This document shows positions 3,974-12,430 of a DNA stretch of 15,355 nucleotides, piece by piece; position 1 is the stretch's first letter; every line of letters begins with the position of its first letter. The position numbers and the translations under genes were made by a program. Origin of the DNA: Thermoplasmata archaeon. Its GTDB lineage: Archaea; Thermoplasmatota; Thermoplasmata; Thermoplasmatales; Thermoplasmataceae. The DNA lies in the NCBI GenBank assembly GCA_021793945.1, contig JAJYRT010000033.1:1-15355 (forward strand). The letters are read 5' to 3'. The notes beneath the pieces are model-generated. The model was given only the letters and a program-made list of their open reading frames with translations. It was not told the DNA's origin and did no database searches.

Positions 3974-5404
3974 CTATTCCATGCAGCAACTCATTTTAGA
4001 TATGTCTCTCGTGAACGACTGTGCGGTGAGCTTTATACCTTCCGCCACGGTGGGAAAAACGTGGCTGTTCTCAATGAGTTTCTCGTATGTCAGCCCGAAT
4101 TTAATTGCATAAACCCCCTCAATAATAAACTCTGCGGCATAGGGAGAAACTGCGTGCACTCCAACTATTTTGCCAGTATGTGCATCCGCGACAATCTTGA
4201 AGGCACCCCTGGTGTCCCGCAAAATCCTGGCCTTCGGTACGGACTCCAATCTCACGGTACTTGTTAACGGGTTTCCAGATTTCGCGGAATATTCAGCTTC
4301 CGTGAAGCCGACAGACGCGAATTGCGGTTCTGTGAAAACTGCCCAAGGCACCTGGTCCATTGGGATGGATGTATCCTCGTGGTTATAGATGTTGGACGCA
4401 ACCGTAGCACCTTCACGTGCAGCCAGGGTTTCCAGTTTGTATTTCTGGCTAACCACATCTCCGGCCGCATAGATATTTGGGTTTGATGTCGCCAGCTGGT
4501 CATTCACGTAGATGCCGTTTCCGGAATACTTTACTCCTGCTTTTTCAAGGCTCAGGGAAGAAACGTTAGGATATCTGCCCGATGCAAGAAGAATCTCGTC
4601 GGTCTCTACCTCCTCTACACCTGAAGCAGATTCCGTGACCAAAACCTTCTTTCCGCTTCGGGACAAGACCCGTGTTACCTTTCGTTCCATCAGGAATTGA
4701 ATTCCTTCTTCAGCAAGGGAGGAAAGCAGTGCTTCCCCAAGCTCCGGCTCAATTCCCGCTGTCACGGTCTTGTGCTCCTTGACAATCTTTACTGTCGACC
4801 CCAGACGGCTCATGGCCTGTCCCAGTTCAAGCCCTATAAATCCCCCTCCGATTATTGCAAGGGTCTGTGGCAGCACGTCTGTGTTCCAGACAGTTTCGCT
4901 CGTAAGAAAGCCGGTTTCGGCCAGTCCCTTGATCTCCTTGATTGTTGGACTGGACCCTGTTGCTACGATGAAGTTGAACCCTGATATTGTCTCCTCTCCA
5001 TCATTACCCTTCACCAGAACAGTGGTTTTGTCCACGAATGAGGCCTTTCCGTCAATAACGGTTATGTTGCCATAGGACTGCACAACTTCGGAATACCTGG
5101 TTCTTCTTTCCTCGCTGACGGCTTCCCTCAACGATCCCATAAGGGTTCGAAAATTGAATTCTGATTTCGCTATGCCTATGCCAGGGTACCTCGGATTTGA
5201 CTGGGTGTGCATAACCTTTGCTGCTTCTATCATGTACTTGGATGGCACACAGCCAACATTGACGCATGTACCGCCAATGGGGCCATAACCTATCATGGCA
5301 ATGGACACCTGCCCCGAGGTGAGTTCGCTTGCCTTTATTGCCGCTGAAAAAGCGGCGGCTCCGCGACCTAGGATAACGAGATCGAAGTCCTTTCCCAAAT
5401 TCAT
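3974..5404 (-). CDS. merA: Mercuric reductase MerA (lacking the fused N-terminal HMA domain)
   Basis: The protein is a 476-residue flavin-dependent disulfide oxidoreductase. It has an FAD dinucleotide fold at the N-terminus (LVILGRGAAA), the redox-active disulfide GGTCVNVGCVPSK (C47, C52), an NAD(P)H-binding fold (IIGGGFIGLELGQ, about residue 185 on), a second FAD contact (NIYAAGDV) and the C-terminal dimer domain ending HVFPTVAEG...KMSCCME. The vicinal C473-C474 pair near the C-terminus is the mercury-binding hallmark separating MerA from lipoamide and glutathione reductases. It reduces Hg(II) to volatile Hg(0) in the cytoplasm with NAD(P)H. Many bacterial MerA proteins carry one or two N-terminal HMA domains; here that domain is a separate gene directly upstream, sharing an ATGA overlap, with AGGTGG as ribosome-binding sequence. 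Confidence 0.95.
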   Translation of the reverse strand: MNLGKDFDLVILGRGAAAFSAAIKASELTSGQVSIAMIGYGPIGGTCVNVGCVPSKYMIEAAKVMHTQSNPRYPGIGIAKSEFNFRTLMGSLREAVSEERRTRYSEVVQSYGNITVIDGKASFVDKTTVLVKGNDGEETISGFNFIVATGSSPTIKEIKGLAETGFLTSETVWNTDVLPQTLAIIGGGFIGLELGQAMSRLGSTVKIVKEHKTVTAGIEPELGEALLSSLAEEGIQFLMERKVTRVLSRSGKKVLVTESASGVEEVETDEILLASGRYPNVSSLSLEKAGVKYSGNGIYVNDQLATSNPNIYAAGDVVSQKYKLETLAAREGATVASNIYNHEDTSIPMDQVPWAVFTEPQFASVGFTEAEYSAKSGNPLTSTVRLESVPKARILRDTRGAFKIVADAHTGKIVGVHAVSPYAAEFIIEGVYAIKFGLTYEKLIENSHVFPTVAEGIKLTAQSFTRDISKMSCCME

Positions 5405-5634
5405 TCCACCTTCCTGATCTGTGCTTTGTAATGCGATGCCTTCCCGAAGACTGGTGCCTTCACAAGGTCTCCTGGTTTTATCATGGAATCATCCATAACA
5501 ACTGTGGCAGTGCCGTCCCCGAGCGATACCTGTACATCGGAGGCACCTGCATTCCTCAGGCCATCACTTACAGTTGCTACGCAGTCTTCGCATGTCATGC
5601 CATAAACTTTCATTGTCACTTTCTTCTGTGCCAT
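5401..5634 (-). CDS. Small cytoplasmic HMA heavy-metal-binding protein (MerP/NmerA-like)
   Basis: The 77-residue protein has the HMA fold signature KVYGMTCEDCVATVSDGL, with metal ligands C15 and C18, and the later strand 'GTATVVMDD' typical of beta-alpha-beta-beta-alpha-beta HMA domains. There is no signal peptide, so unlike periplasmic bacterial MerP it should act in the cytosol. It is the first gene of the mer operon, its stop overlaps the merA start (ATGA), and merA lacks its own HMA domain. The simplest reading is a separate NmerA: it captures Hg(II) and passes it to the C-terminal cysteine pair of MerA. A copper chaperone is the main alternative, but the linkage argues for mercury. The last ~25 residues (PVFGKASHYKAQI) extend slightly past the core fold. 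Confidence 0.85.
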   Translation of the reverse strand: MAQKKVTMKVYGMTCEDCVATVSDGLRNAGASDVQVSLGDGTATVVMDDSMIKPGDLVKAPVFGKASHYKAQIRKVE

Positions 5635-5784: not shown

Positions 5785-6162
5785 ATGGTAGCTGGCGGGG
5801 CCGCAAGGCCTGATCTAGGACGCAGAGAGAGGAAGGAACTCTCCTGCATGGTTTCAGTTGGGGAACGGAAGGTGTGCATCGACCCCTCAATTCCGATACT
5901 TCACCTGCTGGGCAAGAAACATACTGCTGCCATACTAGTCGTAATCGGCAACACTGCCGGGAAAAGGAATTTCAACGAGATACTGAATGACATACCTTTT
6001 TCCAGTTCTACCATCATAGCCGGAAGGCTCAAGGAGCTGGTGCGCAGTGGAATAGTATTGAGAAATGAGACGGCTGAAGGCATTTCATATTTCCTCACTC
6101 CGATGGGAAGTGAACTCAGAAAAATAATGATAGAGCTCTTCAGTTATCTTGATCGGAAATAA
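5785..6162 (+). CDS. HxlR-family winged-helix regulator, probable thiol/mercury-responsive regulator of the mer operon
   Basis: The 125-residue protein has the HxlR (DUF24) pattern: ILHLLGKKHTAAILVVIG (helix 1, usually 'llgGKWt..IL..L'), RNFNEILNDIPFSSSTIIAGRLKELVRSGIVLR (HTH, about 61-93) and the wing SYFLTPMGSELRKIM. C31 lies about ten residues before the LLGKK motif, close to the conserved redox-sensing cysteine of YodB and HypR in this family; a second cysteine, C21, is nearby. Divergent placement next to the HMA-merA operon suggests it controls that operon, with Hg(II) or thiol stress sensed through cysteine. Well-known mer regulators are MerR- or ArsR-type, so an HxlR protein would be unusual. 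A start at ATG 5848 (M22) is possible and keeps C31; the TATA spacing favours 5785. Confidence 0.8.
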   Translation: MVAGGAARPDLGRRERKELSCMVSVGERKVCIDPSIPILHLLGKKHTAAILVVIGNTAGKRNFNEILNDIPFSSSTIIAGRLKELVRSGIVLRNETAEGISYFLTPMGSELRKIMIELFSYLDRK

Positions 6163-6228: not shown

Positions 6229-6238
6229 TTTTAAATAA
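6229..6238 (+). promoter_or_regulatory. TATA box of the riboswitch-thiT transcript
   Basis: TTTTAAATAA is centred about 25 nt upstream of position 6258-6260, exactly where the TPP aptamer begins, so the RNA likely starts at the riboswitch. Confidence 0.6.
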
Positions 6239-6257
6239 ACGGAAGCAATTTTCTTTC

Positions 6258-6342
6258 GATAAGGGGAGCTTCATTGGAGGCTGAGAGGATCAACGGTCGA
6301 CCCTTGGAACCTGATCCGGGTAATGCCGGCGGAGGGACTATT
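6258..6342 (+). ncRNA. TPP (thi-box) riboswitch
   Basis: The conserved blocks of the thiamine pyrophosphate aptamer appear in order: GGGGAGC (6263-6269), GCTGAGA (6280-6286), ACCC (6300-6303), ACCTGATC (6309-6316), GGGTAATGCC (6318-6327) and GGCGGAGGGA (6328-6337; usual consensus GGCGUAGGGA). A small stem GCTTC/GAGGC with an ATTG loop (6268-6281) and a short closing P1 (about 6258-6261 with 6339-6342) are visible. The aptamer is compact at about 85 nt. The conserved 3' strand contains GGAGGG (6331-6336), a strong Shine-Dalgarno match, which in the ligand-bound fold would be paired in P4. TPP binding should therefore mask a ribosome-binding site. TPP riboswitches are rare in archaea but were described in Thermoplasma upstream of MFS transporter genes. 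Confidence 0.95.
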
Positions 6343-6343
6343 T

Positions 6344-6472
6344 GTGAAATACGCGGACTTAAATAAAAAAGTGAGAAACGAAATAAAAACGCCAGGAACA
6401 ACTTCTGAGCGCGCACGCAATATTGCTTCTATTGGGACAGCAGCAGTGAGGGACCATGGCCGATCCCGCTGA
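6344..6472 (+). CDS. Possible 42-codon leader ORF between riboswitch and transporter
   Basis: GTG at 6344 lies 7 nt after the GGAGGG inside the riboswitch 3' strand, the best-placed start codon for that ribosome-binding sequence. It opens 42 codons (MKYADLNKKVRNEIK at the start, basic and polar) ending at TGA 6470-6472, overlapping the transporter ATG at 6456 in another frame by 17 nt. If translated, it would couple riboswitch control to the transporter: ribosomes finishing the leader could re-initiate at 6456. I recognise no homologue. It may instead be a chance frame, with the transporter initiating from its own weak GAGGG sequence (6448-6452). A real N-terminal extension disrupted by a frameshift is a third option. 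Confidence 0.35.
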   Translation: MKYADLNKKVRNEIKTPGTTSERARNIASIGTAAVRDHGRSR

Positions 6473-7709
6473 TCTTTACAGCTCTATTTCCATGGGCGGC
6501 GAGAAATACCTCACCCTGAGGAAAGAGATCGACAATTCAGGCTGGGGCAGGTATCATTCACTCTTGCTGGCAACAATGATGTCAAGCTTTTTTGTGTGGG
6601 GAATGCTCCTTGTCATTGGACCCCTGATCACAAACTGGCCTGTGATCCCCTCTTCATATTTCACCGTCTTGCTGGTATCATCGCCCGCAGGCTTGCTTTC
6701 AGGCAACCTGCTGATGGGGTACCTCTCCGATCGCTATGGCAGGCGGAGGATATTCATCCTGACACTACTCTTAGGCATAATAGGTATTTTCGGAATCTTG
6801 ATCTCACTGAGCCCACTGGAAATTGTTGTTGCCATCTTTCTCGCCGAGATGGGATTCGGTGGTGATGAGACGGTGTCGCTTGCGTTCATGGCGGAACAGT
6901 TTCCCATAAGGTATCGCGGAAAGGCGATCATAGCGGCATCAAATTCAGCGAACATAGGAGTTGCAGCAATTTCTGCGGTCTTCCTTTTCATACCCACCTC
7001 CATTCTTGACCAGAAGGCAATATTTGCGATCATGATAGTCGTTGCGCTTGCAGTCGCGCTACTGACAAGATCCAGACTCCCAGAGAGCCTCAGGTGGGCT
7101 TTCGTTTCGAAGACAGCATCCGGTACAAAACGTAAAAGACTCACAAGTTACGATTATTTCAAGTTTCTTGTGCTGCTGTCCTTTGCCATAACCATTGTGC
7201 TCACGTTTGCACTTGTGGGATACGTGATTGGCCCCTATGAGTTTCCGCAACTGACCAGCATGATAGCTTTTGCTTATGGAGCTGCGGAAGCCATTGCAGG
7301 CGTCGCTCTTCTGTTCTTCATAAACATGATTGGAAGAAGGAAACTGTCAGTTATAGCATATGCTGGTGGGTTTGTGTCAATGGCACTTTTCATACCATAC
7401 GCAATATATTCCAGATCCATAGTAATACTGGCTTTTTTGCTTGCACTGAACGCAATATTTGGAGAGATGGGATGGGCAGTCAGGGAACTTCTCCAGCCGG
7501 AGCTGTTCATAACGACAAACAGGGGAAAAGGCATAGCCGGTGTCCGTGGGATCGCCTACGTTCTCTATATAATCACGCTCTTCGCCATCACCGGATTTTC
7601 CCTGACAGATTACATCATTTATGCCGTTATCATATGGGCTATTGGTATGGTTGCATCTGTTGCCTGGTACGTGAGAGGAAGAGAAACCATGGACGCCAGC
7701 CTAATCTAG
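6456..7709 (+). CDS. thiT: MFS transporter under TPP riboswitch control, probable thiamine or precursor transporter
   Basis: The 417-residue protein has about 12 TM segments. Motif A is GYLSDRYGRRR (88-98) in the TM2-TM3 loop. The TM4-TM5 stretch 'GGDETVSLAFMAEQFPIRYRGKA' resembles the metabolite/sugar-porter branch of the MFS, and the second-half counterpart of motif A is 'MIGRRK'. The first ~30 residues are hydrophilic. The substrate is assigned from context: a TPP riboswitch controls the transcript, and Thermoplasma MFS genes behind such riboswitches have been predicted as thiamine-related transporters (named thiT1/thiT2). It likely imports thiamine or a precursor when TPP is low. An in-frame TGA at 6447 rules out a start further upstream. 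It is convergent with the thermopsin gene, 17 bp away. Confidence 0.85.
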   Translation: MADPADLYSSISMGGEKYLTLRKEIDNSGWGRYHSLLLATMMSSFFVWGMLLVIGPLITNWPVIPSSYFTVLLVSSPAGLLSGNLLMGYLSDRYGRRRIFILTLLLGIIGIFGILISLSPLEIVVAIFLAEMGFGGDETVSLAFMAEQFPIRYRGKAIIAASNSANIGVAAISAVFLFIPTSILDQKAIFAIMIVVALAVALLTRSRLPESLRWAFVSKTASGTKRKRLTSYDYFKFLVLLSFAITIVLTFALVGYVIGPYEFPQLTSMIAFAYGAAEAIAGVALLFFINMIGRRKLSVIAYAGGFVSMALFIPYAIYSRSIVILAFLLALNAIFGEMGWAVRELLQPELFITTNRGKGIAGVRGIAYVLYIITLFAITGFSLTDYIIYAVIIWAIGMVASVAWYVRGRETMDASLI

Positions 7710-7726: not shown

Positions 7727-10700
7727 TCACTTTTTCCTCATTTTTCTGTACACGAGGAAAGCGGAGACGACGCCTCCAGCTATCACACCAAGTATGGCAT
7801 AACCTACCAGTAATATCGGGCTGGCAGCCTGGATGAATGTTATACCTATGGAGCTGTCATTGAAGCCCATGGTGAACCTTCCTCCGGAACTGGAAACGTA
7901 GCCAGCTACCTGGCCTATTGTGTAACTGTAGGTTCCAGGAGACAGTCCCGGCACAATGATGGTGCTGTTTGTAGAGTTATACTGCGTCCCATTTATTGTG
8001 ATGGACCACTGCGTACCGATCCCGAGTCCATTCTCGCTCACTGAAAGTGAATACTCATCCGGGGTGAAGTTAAGGTGAATGTGTACATTCCGTCCCGACA
8101 CTACAACTGTCTCATTGGAGGATACCAGAGTATATCCATAGGCTGATACAGAGTAATTGTATGTTCCGTTTGTGGCTCCGAATAATATGAGGGAAACGCC
8201 TGGAGCACTGTACGCCGTTGTGGGAACGATGCCGTTACCGGATATGGTGATATTCCAGAACGATCCTGCAGACAGTCCGATAGGGGTGAACGCTATTTCA
8301 TAAGTTTCGATGGAAATGAATTTGAGTGACACGGTGCTGTCCATTCCACTGACGGTGAAATTCCCCGTTACGGTTGTATACAGCCCATTTGCCTCGCCGT
8401 AATATTCATAAGTCCCATTTGGGAGCGAAAACGTCGTCTTGCCACTGGTTATTACTCCACCGAACAGGATCGTCGGTACTTTGTCGGGAGTAAGGAAATT
8501 TGACTGGATTTCCAAAAGGTATTCAGTTCCCGGGTTAAGCGTGGAAGGGCTGAATGTTACGGACTGCGGGTATTGAAGTGGGCTTTTGTCGCTGCCATAA
8601 GCTATCAGCCCTCCGTCATTATGCGGCTGGCTGCTGTTTTCGTTGTAGTTCATCCAGTAGTTCCCGCTTATGCCTTTTCCGCCTATGATGTTCTTGCCGG
8701 GGATTATGGAAATATTCCACTTATTGGAGTAAGTGAATGTACCTCCACTGTATATGTCGTTTCCCTTCCCACCCGGGCTGACTGCGGGAGCAGTTCCGGA
8801 GAAAAAGTTGTTATAGATTGTATTGTTTGAACTGTAAAGCTCCAGACCCACCGGTGAATTGCTGTTCAGGAAATACTGGTCCAGGGCATTGGTGACAGTA
8901 GCATCGATGGAAAAGACGTTTCCTGTAACAGTATTGTTCGAATGAGTGCTGTTGGGATTGTAAATGATCATTGAACTTCCCTGGCTGGCGAAATAATTTC
9001 CCGTTATGTTGATGTCAGTTGAATTCCACAGCAAGATGTTTGCAGCGGGGAATCCAGTTAATGCCTCAGAGAACCATCCAGAGACATAGGAAGAGTTCTC
9101 TATGCTTATATTGGACGACCCGTATACCAGCATGCTCAGGTAATTGACCTCCGGAAGGCCGGCAGTCGTGAGCTGGAGAAGATCAGAAACGGGGTAGCTC
9201 ACCCGGAATGATGGCGGGTCTATTATTGCATGATCCGACACATTTGAAATCATCAGCCCTCCGAAGACAGGGAAAGTGAAGTCATTCATCTCTGTGAACA
9301 ACTGGTTCAGACTGCTGCTTTCATTGGATCCGAACAGGACATAGGGTGAAGCTGCAGTGCCGGACCCGTTATAGCTGATATTTTTCAGCTGGCTGTTTCC
9401 ATCTGCAAACAGTGGGGTGTATATGCCGGTGGCATAGTTCAATGAAAGGGTTATATCATTTTGACCGGAAGAAGCCAGTTTCATCTGAAAAGGATCATGG
9501 TTGCTCATAAGAGCTTCCGCTGAATAGTTACCTGGAGGCAGGATGTACTCGAAAGATCCGTTCTGATCAGTTGGCGCCCATTCCGCTGAACTGGCGTTGA
9601 AGCTGTTTCCAGCATTAATAAACATGAACCCGTTTGACGGCGAAAGTTTGCCGCTATAGTCAGCGAATCCGCTTTTGACCGAGCTTATTCCGCTTGTGTT
9701 TCCCGTGTTCCACAAACCATATAGCAGCGAAGGCCCTTCATTCAGGTGCACTGTATGGCCTGTGGAATAATACGCTGATGTCCCTTCAGACGTTTCTCCT
9801 GTATCTGTACCGAAGTCATAGGCGGAGGGGACGCTCTTGTAGGCTGAATGTGATATGTACTTCAGGCTCATGCTTGCGCTGATGTTGTATATTGAGGTGG
9901 TGCTTCCGCCACCCGGCCCTCCGATCATGAATTCCGCATCATAGAGAAGGCCATTGGGAGCAAGCTCATTGCCATTCACCGAGAAGTTGGCAGGCTTTGC
10001 CGTATACCCCGCAGGTTGGCCGCCAGCGGAATTGAAAGTCACTTGGTCGAATGTTCCAGATTTTGTTTTCTGGGACCCATTTATATTTCCTGTCAGGCTA
10101 TAATTGAAGAACACGGTGTTGTTGGCAGTCCCATTATTAGTGGAGTTAAGGTAAAGGCTGATCGTGAAGGGCATGGTAACGGTGAAACTTGGGCCAAGCG
10201 CTATGTGAACGCCAGGGTAACTGATAACGTTACCGGTGCTATGTAGTATCGTTCCAGGTTCCATAACGGAGGTCGGGCTGGAAAAGTTCCACACGTTGTC
10301 CTCAAGGGAGAGGTTGTGAGTTCTAGTGGAGTAAACCATGACATTTTGTGTCCAGTATGAATAACTATCATTTCCCTTTACGGTGGCGTTTCCGAGAACT
10401 GCGTTGAGCTGTACAGATACCGTATTTGGTGCATCGTTCAGGAGATAGAAATCACTCAGGTTATTGACCATGAGGGTGCCTTTGAAGCTTGAAGTATTAT
10501 AGCTCTCGCCCGTCCCATTTACGACGCCGAAGTCACCAATGCCCATCGGAGCGGGTGCCGAAGAGTAAAGCGGCGAGACATGTCCGTTAGCAATGCCTAC
10601 ATTGGCATTTATGTTTGGAAGAAACAGAAACCTGTTCATCGCACCAGACGCATTAGCGATGCCCGTTACGGTTGAAGCCAGAGCCTTTACTGTGGAAATT

Positions 10701-10879
10701 GGTTGCGAGATGTTGCTGCCGGCAGCAGTTGCTGATGGCTGGAGAACTCCGTTATGCAATGATGTCTGTGATGCGTTACTATTGCCATGAATCAGGGGAA
10801 CATAAAGGCCAGAGAGTATGGTGATTGAAACAATGACGATCACGCCTGCCAATATCAAGCTTCTTCCGTGGAATTTCAT
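7727..10879 (-). CDS. Membrane-anchored thermopsin-family (peptidase A5) surface protein with beta-helix and C-terminal repeats
   Basis: The 1050-residue exported protein starts with a signal/anchor segment (residues 7-30). The thermopsin domain spans about 100-390; hallmarks are APAPMGIGDFG, SFKGTLMVNNL, YWTQNV, SLEDNVWNFSS, NGLLYDAEFMIGGPGGGSTT and YDFGTDTGETS. Thermopsins are acid proteases acting outside the cell at low pH. Residues about 585-770 have Asn-rich 'NITGNYF', 'NNTVTGNVF', 'NNTIYNNFF' turns, typical of a right-handed parallel beta-helix (NosD-like). Three Ig-like repeats follow (about 775-855, 858-938, 942-1016; 'F...GL..G..W.ItI.G', 'NGTY.Y'), then one TM helix (1021-1043) and a basic tail. 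N-x-S/T glycosylation sequons are abundant. ATG 10879 is preferred over TTG 10894 because a TATA box (10901-10910) lies 26 nt upstream. The protein should sit outside the membrane, degrading proteins or binding glycans. Confidence 0.9.
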   Translation of the reverse strand: MKFHGRSLILAGVIVIVSITILSGLYVPLIHGNSNASQTSLHNGVLQPSATAAGSNISQPISTVKALASTVTGIANASGAMNRFLFLPNINANVGIANGHVSPLYSSAPAPMGIGDFGVVNGTGESYNTSSFKGTLMVNNLSDFYLLNDAPNTVSVQLNAVLGNATVKGNDSYSYWTQNVMVYSTRTHNLSLEDNVWNFSSPTSVMEPGTILHSTGNVISYPGVHIALGPSFTVTMPFTISLYLNSTNNGTANNTVFFNYSLTGNINGSQKTKSGTFDQVTFNSAGGQPAGYTAKPANFSVNGNELAPNGLLYDAEFMIGGPGGGSTTSIYNISASMSLKYISHSAYKSVPSAYDFGTDTGETSEGTSAYYSTGHTVHLNEGPSLLYGLWNTGNTSGISSVKSGFADYSGKLSPSNGFMFINAGNSFNASSAEWAPTDQNGSFEYILPPGNYSAEALMSNHDPFQMKLASSGQNDITLSLNYATGIYTPLFADGNSQLKNISYNGSGTAASPYVLFGSNESSSLNQLFTEMNDFTFPVFGGLMISNVSDHAIIDPPSFRVSYPVSDLLQLTTAGLPEVNYLSMLVYGSSNISIENSSYVSGWFSEALTGFPAANILLWNSTDINITGNYFASQGSSMIIYNPNSTHSNNTVTGNVFSIDATVTNALDQYFLNSNSPVGLELYSSNNTIYNNFFSGTAPAVSPGGKGNDIYSGGTFTYSNKWNISIIPGKNIIGGKGISGNYWMNYNENSSQPHNDGGLIAYGSDKSPLQYPQSVTFSPSTLNPGTEYLLEIQSNFLTPDKVPTILFGGVITSGKTTFSLPNGTYEYYGEANGLYTTVTGNFTVSGMDSTVSLKFISIETYEIAFTPIGLSAGSFWNITISGNGIVPTTAYSAPGVSLILFGATNGTYNYSVSAYGYTLVSSNETVVVSGRNVHIHLNFTPDEYSLSVSENGLGIGTQWSITINGTQYNSTNSTIIVPGLSPGTYSYTIGQVAGYVSSSGGRFTMGFNDSSIGITFIQAASPILLVGYAILGVIAGGVVSAFLVYRKMRKK

Positions 10880-10900
10880 AGTGGGCTGATGCAAATCCGC

Positions 10901-10949: not shown

Positions 10950-12404
10950 TCACTTGCTTGCGAGCGGATCAGGTAATTTTGTGGGATAAAACATGCGGTC
11001 GCGGAAGAGCCTATCCATCGTTTCATTGTCAGCTTGAACGAGGGCTTCATGGAAGTCCGCTTTCTTCTCCTTCTCCTGAAATATAGGATAAGTCGTCAAT
11101 ATTGACCTTGCCTGGTTGAGCCCCAGATACTTCCTCGTGTAGCTCGAGGACGAGTACTTGTAGGTTGTCAAGAATTCGCTGTTAAACCTGTACCTCGCAT
11201 ATTCAAGTGTTTTGTTGAAATAGATTCTAAGGTATTCCTGTTCCTCTGCAGGAAGGCTGGCGAACAGAATCTGTATGGGGTGTGTCCTGTACTTCTTTCC
11301 GGATACTACAATGGCATCAGCATTGAACTCCTCTCTTATATTGTAGAGCCCGCATCTTCCTTTCCAGCTGCCGGAGTCGAGGGTTCTTAGAAAAAGTATG
11401 TTACTCCTGATAATCGAAATGGTATCATCGTTTATCATGTATTCTCGTTTGGCATACGTGCGGTTGGAAAAACAGCTCACGTCAACCACATGTGTCTTGT
11501 AGTTCCCTGGCCTGGCCAATAGTTCCTCTTCCGATAGGTAAAACCTGAATTTCAGGTCATTTTTTGGAAGGTCGGAGAGAAAGTCATCGAAAAAGAGGCC
11601 GGCGCGATAATCATTTCTCCTATCAAGGGTGATATTGGAGCTAGAGGTCGTGTCTCCCACAGTGGTGACTGGAAGAGTAAAGTTTTGAGCTTTCCCGGAG
11701 GATTTCTCGAAAAAGCATATCACAACATTTGTACCTGTATACTGGAAAATTCTCTTCTCAATCACTGTTGCCTTTTCCAGCCTGTATTTTGAAAATAGCA
11801 ATTTCCTGATTTCGTTTGAGACTGAATTGCCGTAAAGGAAATTTGAGGGTATTATATACACCATTTTATCCAGTCCCTCCTCAAAATCCCGCAGCAGCGC
11901 GATTTGGTAAAGATCCTGCAATCCGCTTGCACTGCCGGTGAAATAGCTGAGGTATGGTCTGACGGACGGGGTCTTTGCAATATATCCTAGGTATAGATAT
12001 GGTGGGTTTGTAATATGGAAAACCCTGAATTTTGTATTCAACCTCGGGAATGCCTTCATGCCATCGTTTGTTAAGATGTTCTTCTCGGCTATATCAAGCG
12101 GAATGCCGTATCCAGCGGCTTTTTCCCGTGATCGTAACACCGCATCCTCGCTGACATCAGAAAGGAAGACATGATCTTCGAAGAACTGGATGCGATGAGC
12201 TTCATCTACATGTTCAAGCATTGGCAAGATGAGGTTGCCCTCACCGCAGAAATTGTCTGTCCAAGCATAATCAAACAACCTGTCACTTATGTTCGGGTAA
12301 ATGTAATCCTCAAAAATATCGACTGGGGTAAGGTGACTGCCAAAATTCCTCCTTCTTTCCCTTTCCATTCCATTATTCATGGTTTTGCATTCCTTGGGTT
12401 CCAT
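10950..12404 (-). CDS. N6-adenine DNA methyltransferase (TaqI-like class), no restriction partner seen
   Basis: The 484-residue protein has the motif order of N6-adenine methylases: FGSHLTP (motif X region, 21-27), DNFCGEGNLILP (motif I, S-adenosylmethionine binding, 50-61), LSDVS (motif II, D83), catalytic NPPY (motif IV, 133-136), then MVYIIPSNFLYG and TNVVICFFEK. The C-terminal ~250 residues should carry the DNA target recognition domain and resemble type II/IIG-like enzymes with 'hltP..i...i.p' starts. It adds a methyl group to adenine in a specific DNA site; the site cannot be read from sequence. No neighbouring endonuclease was found, so it is solitary or its partner is elsewhere. ATG 12404 is preferred over GTG 12425 because the TATA element at 12431-12443 would place the RNA start near 12414. 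Confidence 0.85.
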   Translation of the reverse strand: MEPKECKTMNNGMERERRRNFGSHLTPVDIFEDYIYPNISDRLFDYAWTDNFCGEGNLILPMLEHVDEAHRIQFFEDHVFLSDVSEDAVLRSREKAAGYGIPLDIAEKNILTNDGMKAFPRLNTKFRVFHITNPPYLYLGYIAKTPSVRPYLSYFTGSASGLQDLYQIALLRDFEEGLDKMVYIIPSNFLYGNSVSNEIRKLLFSKYRLEKATVIEKRIFQYTGTNVVICFFEKSSGKAQNFTLPVTTVGDTTSSSNITLDRRNDYRAGLFFDDFLSDLPKNDLKFRFYLSEEELLARPGNYKTHVVDVSCFSNRTYAKREYMINDDTISIIRSNILFLRTLDSGSWKGRCGLYNIREEFNADAIVVSGKKYRTHPIQILFASLPAEEQEYLRIYFNKTLEYARYRFNSEFLTTYKYSSSSYTRKYLGLNQARSILTTYPIFQEKEKKADFHEALVQADNETMDRLFRDRMFYPTKLPDPLASK

Positions 12405-12430
12405 TTCTCCATCCTTCAATTGCACCAGAC

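Follow-up and report, generated by a model that had tools for sequence, protein, structure and literature searches.

How can a riboswitch whose Shine-Dalgarno (SD) sequence is welded into its ligand-binding pocket control a gene whose start codon is not adjacent to it? A TPP riboswitch in a 15,355-nucleotide stretch of Thermoplasmata archaeon DNA (contig JAJYRT010000033.1 of assembly GCA_021793945.1) raises this question. We call this whole stretch the window. Between its aptamer and the transporter gene lies a short reading frame, the leader ORF, and a preliminary description of the locus proposed that ligand binding blocks ribosome entry at this frame, which then relays the effect to the transporter by re-initiation.

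A Shine-Dalgarno sequence within the TPP aptamer

The sole Rfam match in the window is a TPP riboswitch aptamer (RF00059) at positions 6252..6355 of the forward strand. The match is full-length (model positions 1-105 of 105), and its score of 71.9 bits (E 8.1e-13) is above the curated cut-off of 54.3 bits. The aptamer carries the motifs CUGAGA and CCUGAUCCGG...GCGGAGG, and its 3' block reads GGCGGAGGGA. It also contains the sequence GGAGGG (SD1, 6331..6336, forward strand), which extends over a joining stretch and the 3' strand of P4 and is complementary to GGATCACCTCCT. Because the 16S rRNA of two relatives (G001 and G046) ends in GGATCACCTCCT, GGAGG is a proper SD sequence in those organisms. 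The anti-SD pattern was present in four of the five relatives' genomes searched, and two of the three matches tested correspond to the 16S end.

GGAGGG had been placed inside helix P4. In the family structure this is true of its middle part, where A6333, G6334 and G6335 pair with U6312, C6311 and C6310, respectively. However, G6331 belongs to the stretch that joins P5 to P4, G6332 is opposite G6313 as a non-standard G.G pair, and G6336 is unpaired. The 3' strand of P1 (6339-6343) directly abuts a GTG codon at 6344, so that GGAGGG resides in the aptamer core with the GTG 7 nt past its last G. Because the SD sequence is inside the core, a separate expression platform is not needed. Binding of TPP and ligand-dependent masking of SD1 are predicted for the window RNA.

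A TATA-box-like sequence, TTTTAAATAA, is located at 6229..6238 (forward strand), 28 nt upstream of where P1 begins; thus, the transcript should begin approximately at the aptamer. Using an 8-nt sequence that we take to be the TATA box consensus, we found a match of at least 7/8 within 80 nt around P1 in 76 of 105 loci that likewise read GGAGG, and the box starts at -36..-22 in 57 of these 76. The corresponding count for control stretches of equal length further upstream is 22 of 103.

A leader ORF overlapping the transporter start

The GTG at 6344-6346 opens a leader ORF (6344..6472, forward strand) of 42 codons that ends with TGA at 6470-6472. The other two frames across this region contain 5 and 2 stops. 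The last 17 nt of the leader (6456..6472, forward strand) overlap the start of a gene encoding an MFS permease (6456..7709, forward strand; ATG at 6456; Pfam MFS_1), a putative transporter of thiamin or a thiamin precursor, whose substrate is suggested by the riboswitch only. The GTG 7 nt past GGAGGG, the 42-codon frame and the 17-nt overlap were therefore all described with correct coordinates. The gene had also been called thiT. This name is a functional guess, and an NCBIfam profile search with the protein found no family above its cut-off.

A second SD sequence, GAGGGA (SD2, 6448..6453, forward strand), precedes the transporter start. Its duplex energy (-6.7 kcal/mol) is weaker than that of the equivalent elements in two close relatives, L003 (-10.9 kcal/mol) and L004 (-9.9 kcal/mol). 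The energy needed to open SD2 is 2.0 kcal/mol, compared with a mean of 3.3 kcal/mol for shuffled sequences, and the element is not predicted to be hidden. Thus, unaided initiation at 6456 is possible and would blunt control by TPP.

Close relatives of the window locus

Scanning a single genome of each species produced two close loci (L003 and L004), and a search of the order added L066 (genome G046) and L029 (genome G041). The transporters of L003 and L004 are 90-92% identical to that of the window, and the L066 protein is 77% identical. In the window, L003, L004 and L066, a start codon is found 8 nt after GGAGG (ATG in L066), the leaders have 42, 42, 42 and 40 codons, and the overlaps are 17, 17, 17 and 14 nt, respectively. 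Start, frame and overlap are therefore kept in all four uncut members of the window clade. L029, a fifth close copy, has the same GTG, after which its contig ends. Relatives lacking the start codon or having stops in the frame had been named as observations that would speak against the leader, and neither was seen in L003, L004 or L066.

Within the window clade, leader codons 2-10 differ at 0-3 of 27 sites and the codons further on at 13-25 of 68, as is expected of an initiation region. This conserved beginning is not general, because in 16 pooled pairs of leaders, codons 2-10 differ at 115 of 432 sites and the remainder at 186 of 576. The idea that the leader start (KYADLNKKVRNEI) is a fossil of the transporter N-terminus (KYLTLRKEID) was dropped; by eye, L066 has a different leader at this place.

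TPP loci across the order

RF00059 matches were detected in 86 of the 117 genomes of the window's order, and the matches in 84 genomes score over the cut-off. Thus, TPP riboswitches, which had been described as rare in archaea, are not rare in this order, the only one that the figure covers. We classified 124 TPP loci, consisting of the window and 123 loci fetched from the order of its relatives. The sequence at the place of the embedded SD is GGAGG in 104 loci, GAAGG in 17 and GTAGG in 3. An embedded SD is therefore the norm in the order, and the U-to-G change that had been singled out in the window is its usual state.

A locus was termed direct if a gene starts within 10 nt of GGAGG. By this definition the 104 GGAGG loci comprise 53 direct loci, 41 leader loci, 9 others and 1 cut at a contig end. 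Among the 17 GAAGG loci, 13 are other, 3 were flagged as leader and 1 as direct, and the GTAGG loci include 2 others and 1 flagged as leader. We take the flagged leaders at order loci without GGAGG (L044, L055, L059 and L116) to be the result of chance. Transporter starts were chosen by SD energy, a procedure that fails in some GC-rich loci, which were classed as other.

When L155, from outside the order, is included, the leader loci number 42. A gene or leader start then lies 5-10 nt downstream of the embedded SD in 95 loci (53 direct, 42 leader) out of 104, of which 103 are the uncut GGAGG loci of the order. This regularity and the position of the SD in the aptamer core agree with the earlier proposal that these RNAs need no separate expression platform. 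Leaders start 5-10 nt after GGAGG and direct genes 5-9 nt after it, with a mode of 7 for both. In the MFS family, GGAGG is found in 88 of 90 loci, which divide into 42 leader loci (including L155), 39 direct loci and 7 others.

In order loci without GGAGG, the gene starts 38-61 nt further on, mostly with its own SD, and a GGAAAGC...GCTTTTC hairpin can be seen by eye in several of them. The hairpin and the gene's SD suggest that a separate expression platform is used there. A separate class of TPP switches (L044, L048, L085, L086, L096, L097 and similar loci) has, by eye, ends resembling GGCGAAGGAAAGC...GCTTTTCTGGCAGGAG-ATG. The aptamer 3' end of the L044 type could, also by eye, take part in a hairpin ahead of the SD that belongs to the gene, and the associated proteins cluster with the solute-binding-protein group.

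Six loci (L099, L113, L118, L119, L122 and L123) carry ACG both at the leader start (+9 after GGAGG) and at the transporter start, where relatives have ATG, and L076 carries ACG at the leader start only. In five of the six, the overlap is the 7-nt sequence ACGTTAA or a one-base variant, corresponding to ATGTTAA in relatives. An upstream ATG or GTG is present in most of the ACG loci, and none is in frame for the leaders of L099 and L076. ACG is a possible start codon at these loci (for L076, of the leader).

Frequency of leader ORFs relative to chance

Chance expectation was estimated from dinucleotide-preserving shuffles of the region from aptamer to SD2 at every non-direct GGAGG locus. A leader was scored if ATG or GTG occurs 5-10 nt after GGAGG and opens a frame whose stop lies from -6 to +25 relative to the transporter start. 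This start was set by hand for the six loci with ACG at both starts. P values are Poisson-binomial. The test set of 52 loci (50 in the order and 2 outside) contains 42 leaders, whereas 2.6 are expected (P 7e-52). Reducing the set to one locus per group of similar transporters leaves 20 of 26 loci with a leader versus 1.13 expected (80% identity groups), 12 of 16 versus 0.58 (60% identity, P 2e-16) and 7 of 10 versus 0.34 (50% identity). By this comparison, the leader ORF recurs as an element of these loci, at a frequency far beyond what shuffled sequences permit.

As a control, order loci without GGAGG show the layout in 2 of 19 cases versus 0.60 expected (P 0.12). With representatives at 60% identity the control gives 2 of 10 versus 0.36 (P 0.045), and so it is not perfectly flat. 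Unselected loci without GGAGG from outside the order have 13 leaders in 37 loci versus 1.05 expected. A leader by the above definition is absent from 10 of the 52 non-direct GGAGG loci, namely seven MFS loci with ACG or an unusual start spacing, and L035, L111 and L138.

The overlaps at the 42 leader loci are 0 nt (1 locus), 1 nt (8), 4 nt (8), 7 nt (8), 8 nt (2), 10 nt (1), 11 nt (6), 14 nt (5) and 17 nt (3), such that 27 of the 42 lie in the range of 0-8 nt. Comparison between loci shows the position of the SD, the spacing of the start codon, the frame and the overlap, in addition to the recurrence of the arrangement.

Sequence change in leaders and history of the arrangement

The leaders of the window and L003 differ at 9 of 22.0 synonymous sites and 18 of 71.0 non-synonymous sites. 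For a second pair, L023 and L026, the values are 4 of 11.0 and 30 of 40.0. By eye, the L066 leader is unlike that of the window despite its 77% identical transporter. In further pairs, two of which are given here, the spacing between the leader and transporter start codons has changed by a number not divisible by 3. The overlap is 14 versus 1 nt in L030 and L046, whose transporters are 90% identical, and 11 versus 0 nt in L061 and L062. In both pairs the phase has shifted and the leader stop is still on the transporter start. Leader peptides therefore appear to evolve nearly neutrally, with the position of the stop kept. A near-neutral peptide combined with a kept frame and stop position would be expected if selection acted on coupling and not on a product.

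A tree built from 77 MFS proteins requires at least 6 changes of the leader or direct label, at least 3 of which are forced by starred branches. The tree omits L010, L039, partial proteins and rows more than 96% identical, and the changes are counted without regard to direction. In the window's subtree, leader loci (the window clade, L018, L022 and L024) stand beside direct loci that are presumed to be from Thermoplasma.

Loci outside the order

TPP matches occur in 192 of 400 genomes of the class (167 over the cut-off), a draw that includes genomes of the order. From among the matches listed, 46 loci outside the order were fetched, and 22 of them were chosen by eye as leader-like (L129 and 21 of L132-L171). 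These loci read GAAGG or GCAGG. The 21 leaders that were parsed start exactly 7 nt after AGG and have 12-21 codons, and L163 has the same +7 leader start. The leader stops are located -2 to +26 relative to the transporter ATG, with L167, whose transporter is cut by a contig end, judged by eye. The gene product of L147, the only one tested there, is a solute-binding protein (SBP_bac_1). By eye, the genes that follow TPP switches in the class also include those for a ThiL-like kinase (L131), an NCS1-like permease (L164) and a Thi4-like protein (L035). The fetched outside-order loci that were not chosen as leader-like are arranged differently.

In 21 loci picked by eye (a near copy, L136, was left out of this test), the longest perfect stem ending at most 6 nt from the transporter ATG has 5-10 bp. 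This stem beats 95% of shuffles in 9 of the 21 loci, versus 2 of the 42 GGAGG leader loci. Many of the stems are GC-rich, and their arm sequences differ between loci. The ribosome that translates the leader may therefore open a structural lid at loci outside the order. An ungapped alignment of the 21 sequences placed the hairpins out of register and was not used.

Proposed mechanism and alternative explanations

We consider it probable that the window RNA is a translational OFF switch whose effect is relayed through the leader ORF to the transporter. When TPP is scarce, the GGAGGG of the aptamer's 3' strand would be free, and ribosomes would start at the GTG at 6344, translate 42 codons and finish 14 nt past the transporter ATG. 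Termination of the leader would then deliver or admit a ribosome to the ATG at 6456. When TPP is bound, the aptamer is expected to close over GGAGGG, leaving the leader untranslated and the transporter start poorly used. The leader peptide itself would be irrelevant; all that is kept is where the leader starts, that its frame is open and where it stops. We infer TPP-dependent masking, translation of the leader, dependence of the transporter on it, and a hand-over either by re-initiation with a short step back or by local unfolding of the RNA.

The arrangement has the layout of the relay at the Mycobacterium tuberculosis ppe2 gene, in which a short ORF behind a switch-controlled SD has a stop overlapping the main start. 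Distances of about -8 to +6 nt are given as indicative of termination-reinitiation in an account of Haloferax volcanii (Huber et al. 2023, PMC10666635), and the overlaps of the window (17 nt) and L066 (14 nt) are outside this range. Thus, the part of the preliminary description that made the leader a relay gains from its recurrence (42 of 52 loci versus 2.6 expected), but re-initiation as its mode fits the 17-nt overlap less readily.

If the transporter starts alone from SD2, the leader would be an idle by-product of an SD-like aptamer, and TPP would act otherwise, for example on mRNA stability or transcription. SD2 is a fair match for which no masking is predicted in the window, and the 3' part of TPP aptamers is described as purine-rich by nature (PMC2258182). 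Nevertheless, a start, an open frame and a suitable stop position occur jointly at 42 of 52 loci, phase changes between related loci are compensated, and order loci without GGAGG show the layout in 2 of 19 cases versus 0.60 expected. We therefore regard independent initiation as unlikely. The relay could also proceed without re-initiation, if the leader ribosome unfolds the RNA that covers SD2, giving access to a new ribosome. Long overlaps suit this mode according to a review (PMC12548453). The stems near the transporter ATG in the loci picked by eye outside the order also speak for it. However, the same stem test singles out only 2 of the 42 GGAGG leader loci, and SD2 is not hidden in the window. 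Pairing between the leader interior and SD2 also gave little sign, with a mean z of 0.39 for 50 leader loci and 0.29 for the 42 GGAGG loci. The unfolding version is therefore possible but somewhat doubtful for the locus as a whole, although, given a relay, re-initiation and unfolding appear about equally probable.

If the leader encoded a small protein with a function of its own, regulated together with the transporter, this would account for the kept frame, and some leaders are hydrophobic by eye. This explanation is very improbable given the similar synonymous and non-synonymous rates in both pairs of leaders and the dissimilar leader of L066. A protein search with the window's leader peptide also returned no candidate homologue, and we rejected a functional peptide on the substitution pattern and this missing homologue. 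Overlapping frames might alternatively reflect a programmed frameshift that fuses leader and transporter into one longer protein, and a minor fusion product is reported for the ppe2 switch (PMC11260477). The overlap phases are mixed, because 25 of the 42 loci would need one frame change, 16 the other and 1 neither, and we therefore reject such a fusion as barely conceivable.

It is thus most likely that TPP control passes through a leader ORF that is indifferent in sequence. On balance, we favor the broader proposal that TPP riboswitches of Thermoplasmata commonly act in this manner. A fixed module of aptamer, SD and start codon would precede different genes, encoding MFS permeases or solute-binding proteins, and would have been gained or lost several times with the position of the stop held by selection.

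Relationship to known systems

TPP riboswitches with a ribosome-binding site buried in the aptamer have been described (Barrick and Breaker 2007, PMC2258182). As is proposed for the window, the purine-rich 3' part of the aptamer serves as the SD, no further platform is used, and the ligand lowers translation. In that description the SD belongs to the regulated gene, whereas in the window it belongs to the leader ORF, and the gene has a second, overlapping start.

The ppe2 B12 riboswitch of M. tuberculosis, with its leader uPPE2, likewise controls a short ORF, the stop of which overlaps the start of the following gene, and its report states that main gene expression depends on leader translation, with re-initiation (Kipkorir et al. 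2024, PMC11260477). That system, as reported, is a single locus in a bacterium, senses B12, uses a separate anti-TIR stem to mask the SD and has an AUGA overlap. In contrast, the window group is archaeal, belongs to the TPP class, has its SD in the aptamer core and comprises 42 GGAGG leader loci. Leaders also precede solute-binding-protein genes. Overlapping stop/start pairs couple translation in H. volcanii (Huber et al. 2019, PMC6728339; Huber et al. 2023, PMC10666635). The predominant overlaps in that archaeon are 4, 1 and 8 nt, compared with 17 nt in the window, and the parts of that account considered here feature no riboswitch.

Four direct TPP switches (L009, L037, L040 and L041, presumed to be from Thermoplasma) resemble the window in having GGAGG in the aptamer and a related transporter (53-54% identical). 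However, the transporter's own start is found 5-7 nt after GGAGG without a leader, whereas a leader stands between the two in the window. THI elements in Thermoplasma were reportedly noted by Rodionov et al. in 2002. They are also mentioned in a published referee comment (PMC2974657).

A literature search, which covered few subscription journals, produced no description of leader ORFs for TPP switches in archaea and no report of a translated-leader riboswitch with re-initiation for TPP or for archaea. A ribosome-binding site inside a TPP aptamer and riboswitch-leader coupling at a B12 switch are known already. Because these parts are known separately and no TPP or archaeal report was found, the recurrent archaeal TPP version looks new, as a variation on a known theme.

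If our proposal is correct, these RNAs would constitute the first widespread relay from riboswitch to leader ORF, as far as the literature search shows, and would offer a mechanistic handle on archaeal riboswitches. The arrangement would also answer the question raised above, in that a switch with its SD welded into the binding pocket could control a non-adjacent gene start by insertion of a disposable reading frame. Because a single protein family contains both direct and leader loci and has switched between the two repeatedly, the question of whether leader translation carries the signal is directly testable. Short overlapping leaders may well escape ordinary annotation.

Neighboring genes in the window

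A gene for an HxlR-type regulator (5785-6162, forward strand) is directly upstream of the riboswitch, and the end of this gene is also found upstream in L001 and L002. Further upstream, the reverse strand at 3974-5634 encodes the mercuric reductase MerA (over the NCBIfam cut-off), adjoined by a gene for a small heavy-metal-associated (HMA) protein. On the other side of the transporter, a large protein with thermopsin and NosD-like regions is encoded at 7727-10894 (reverse strand), and beside its gene lies that of an Eco57I-like methylase (10950-12425).
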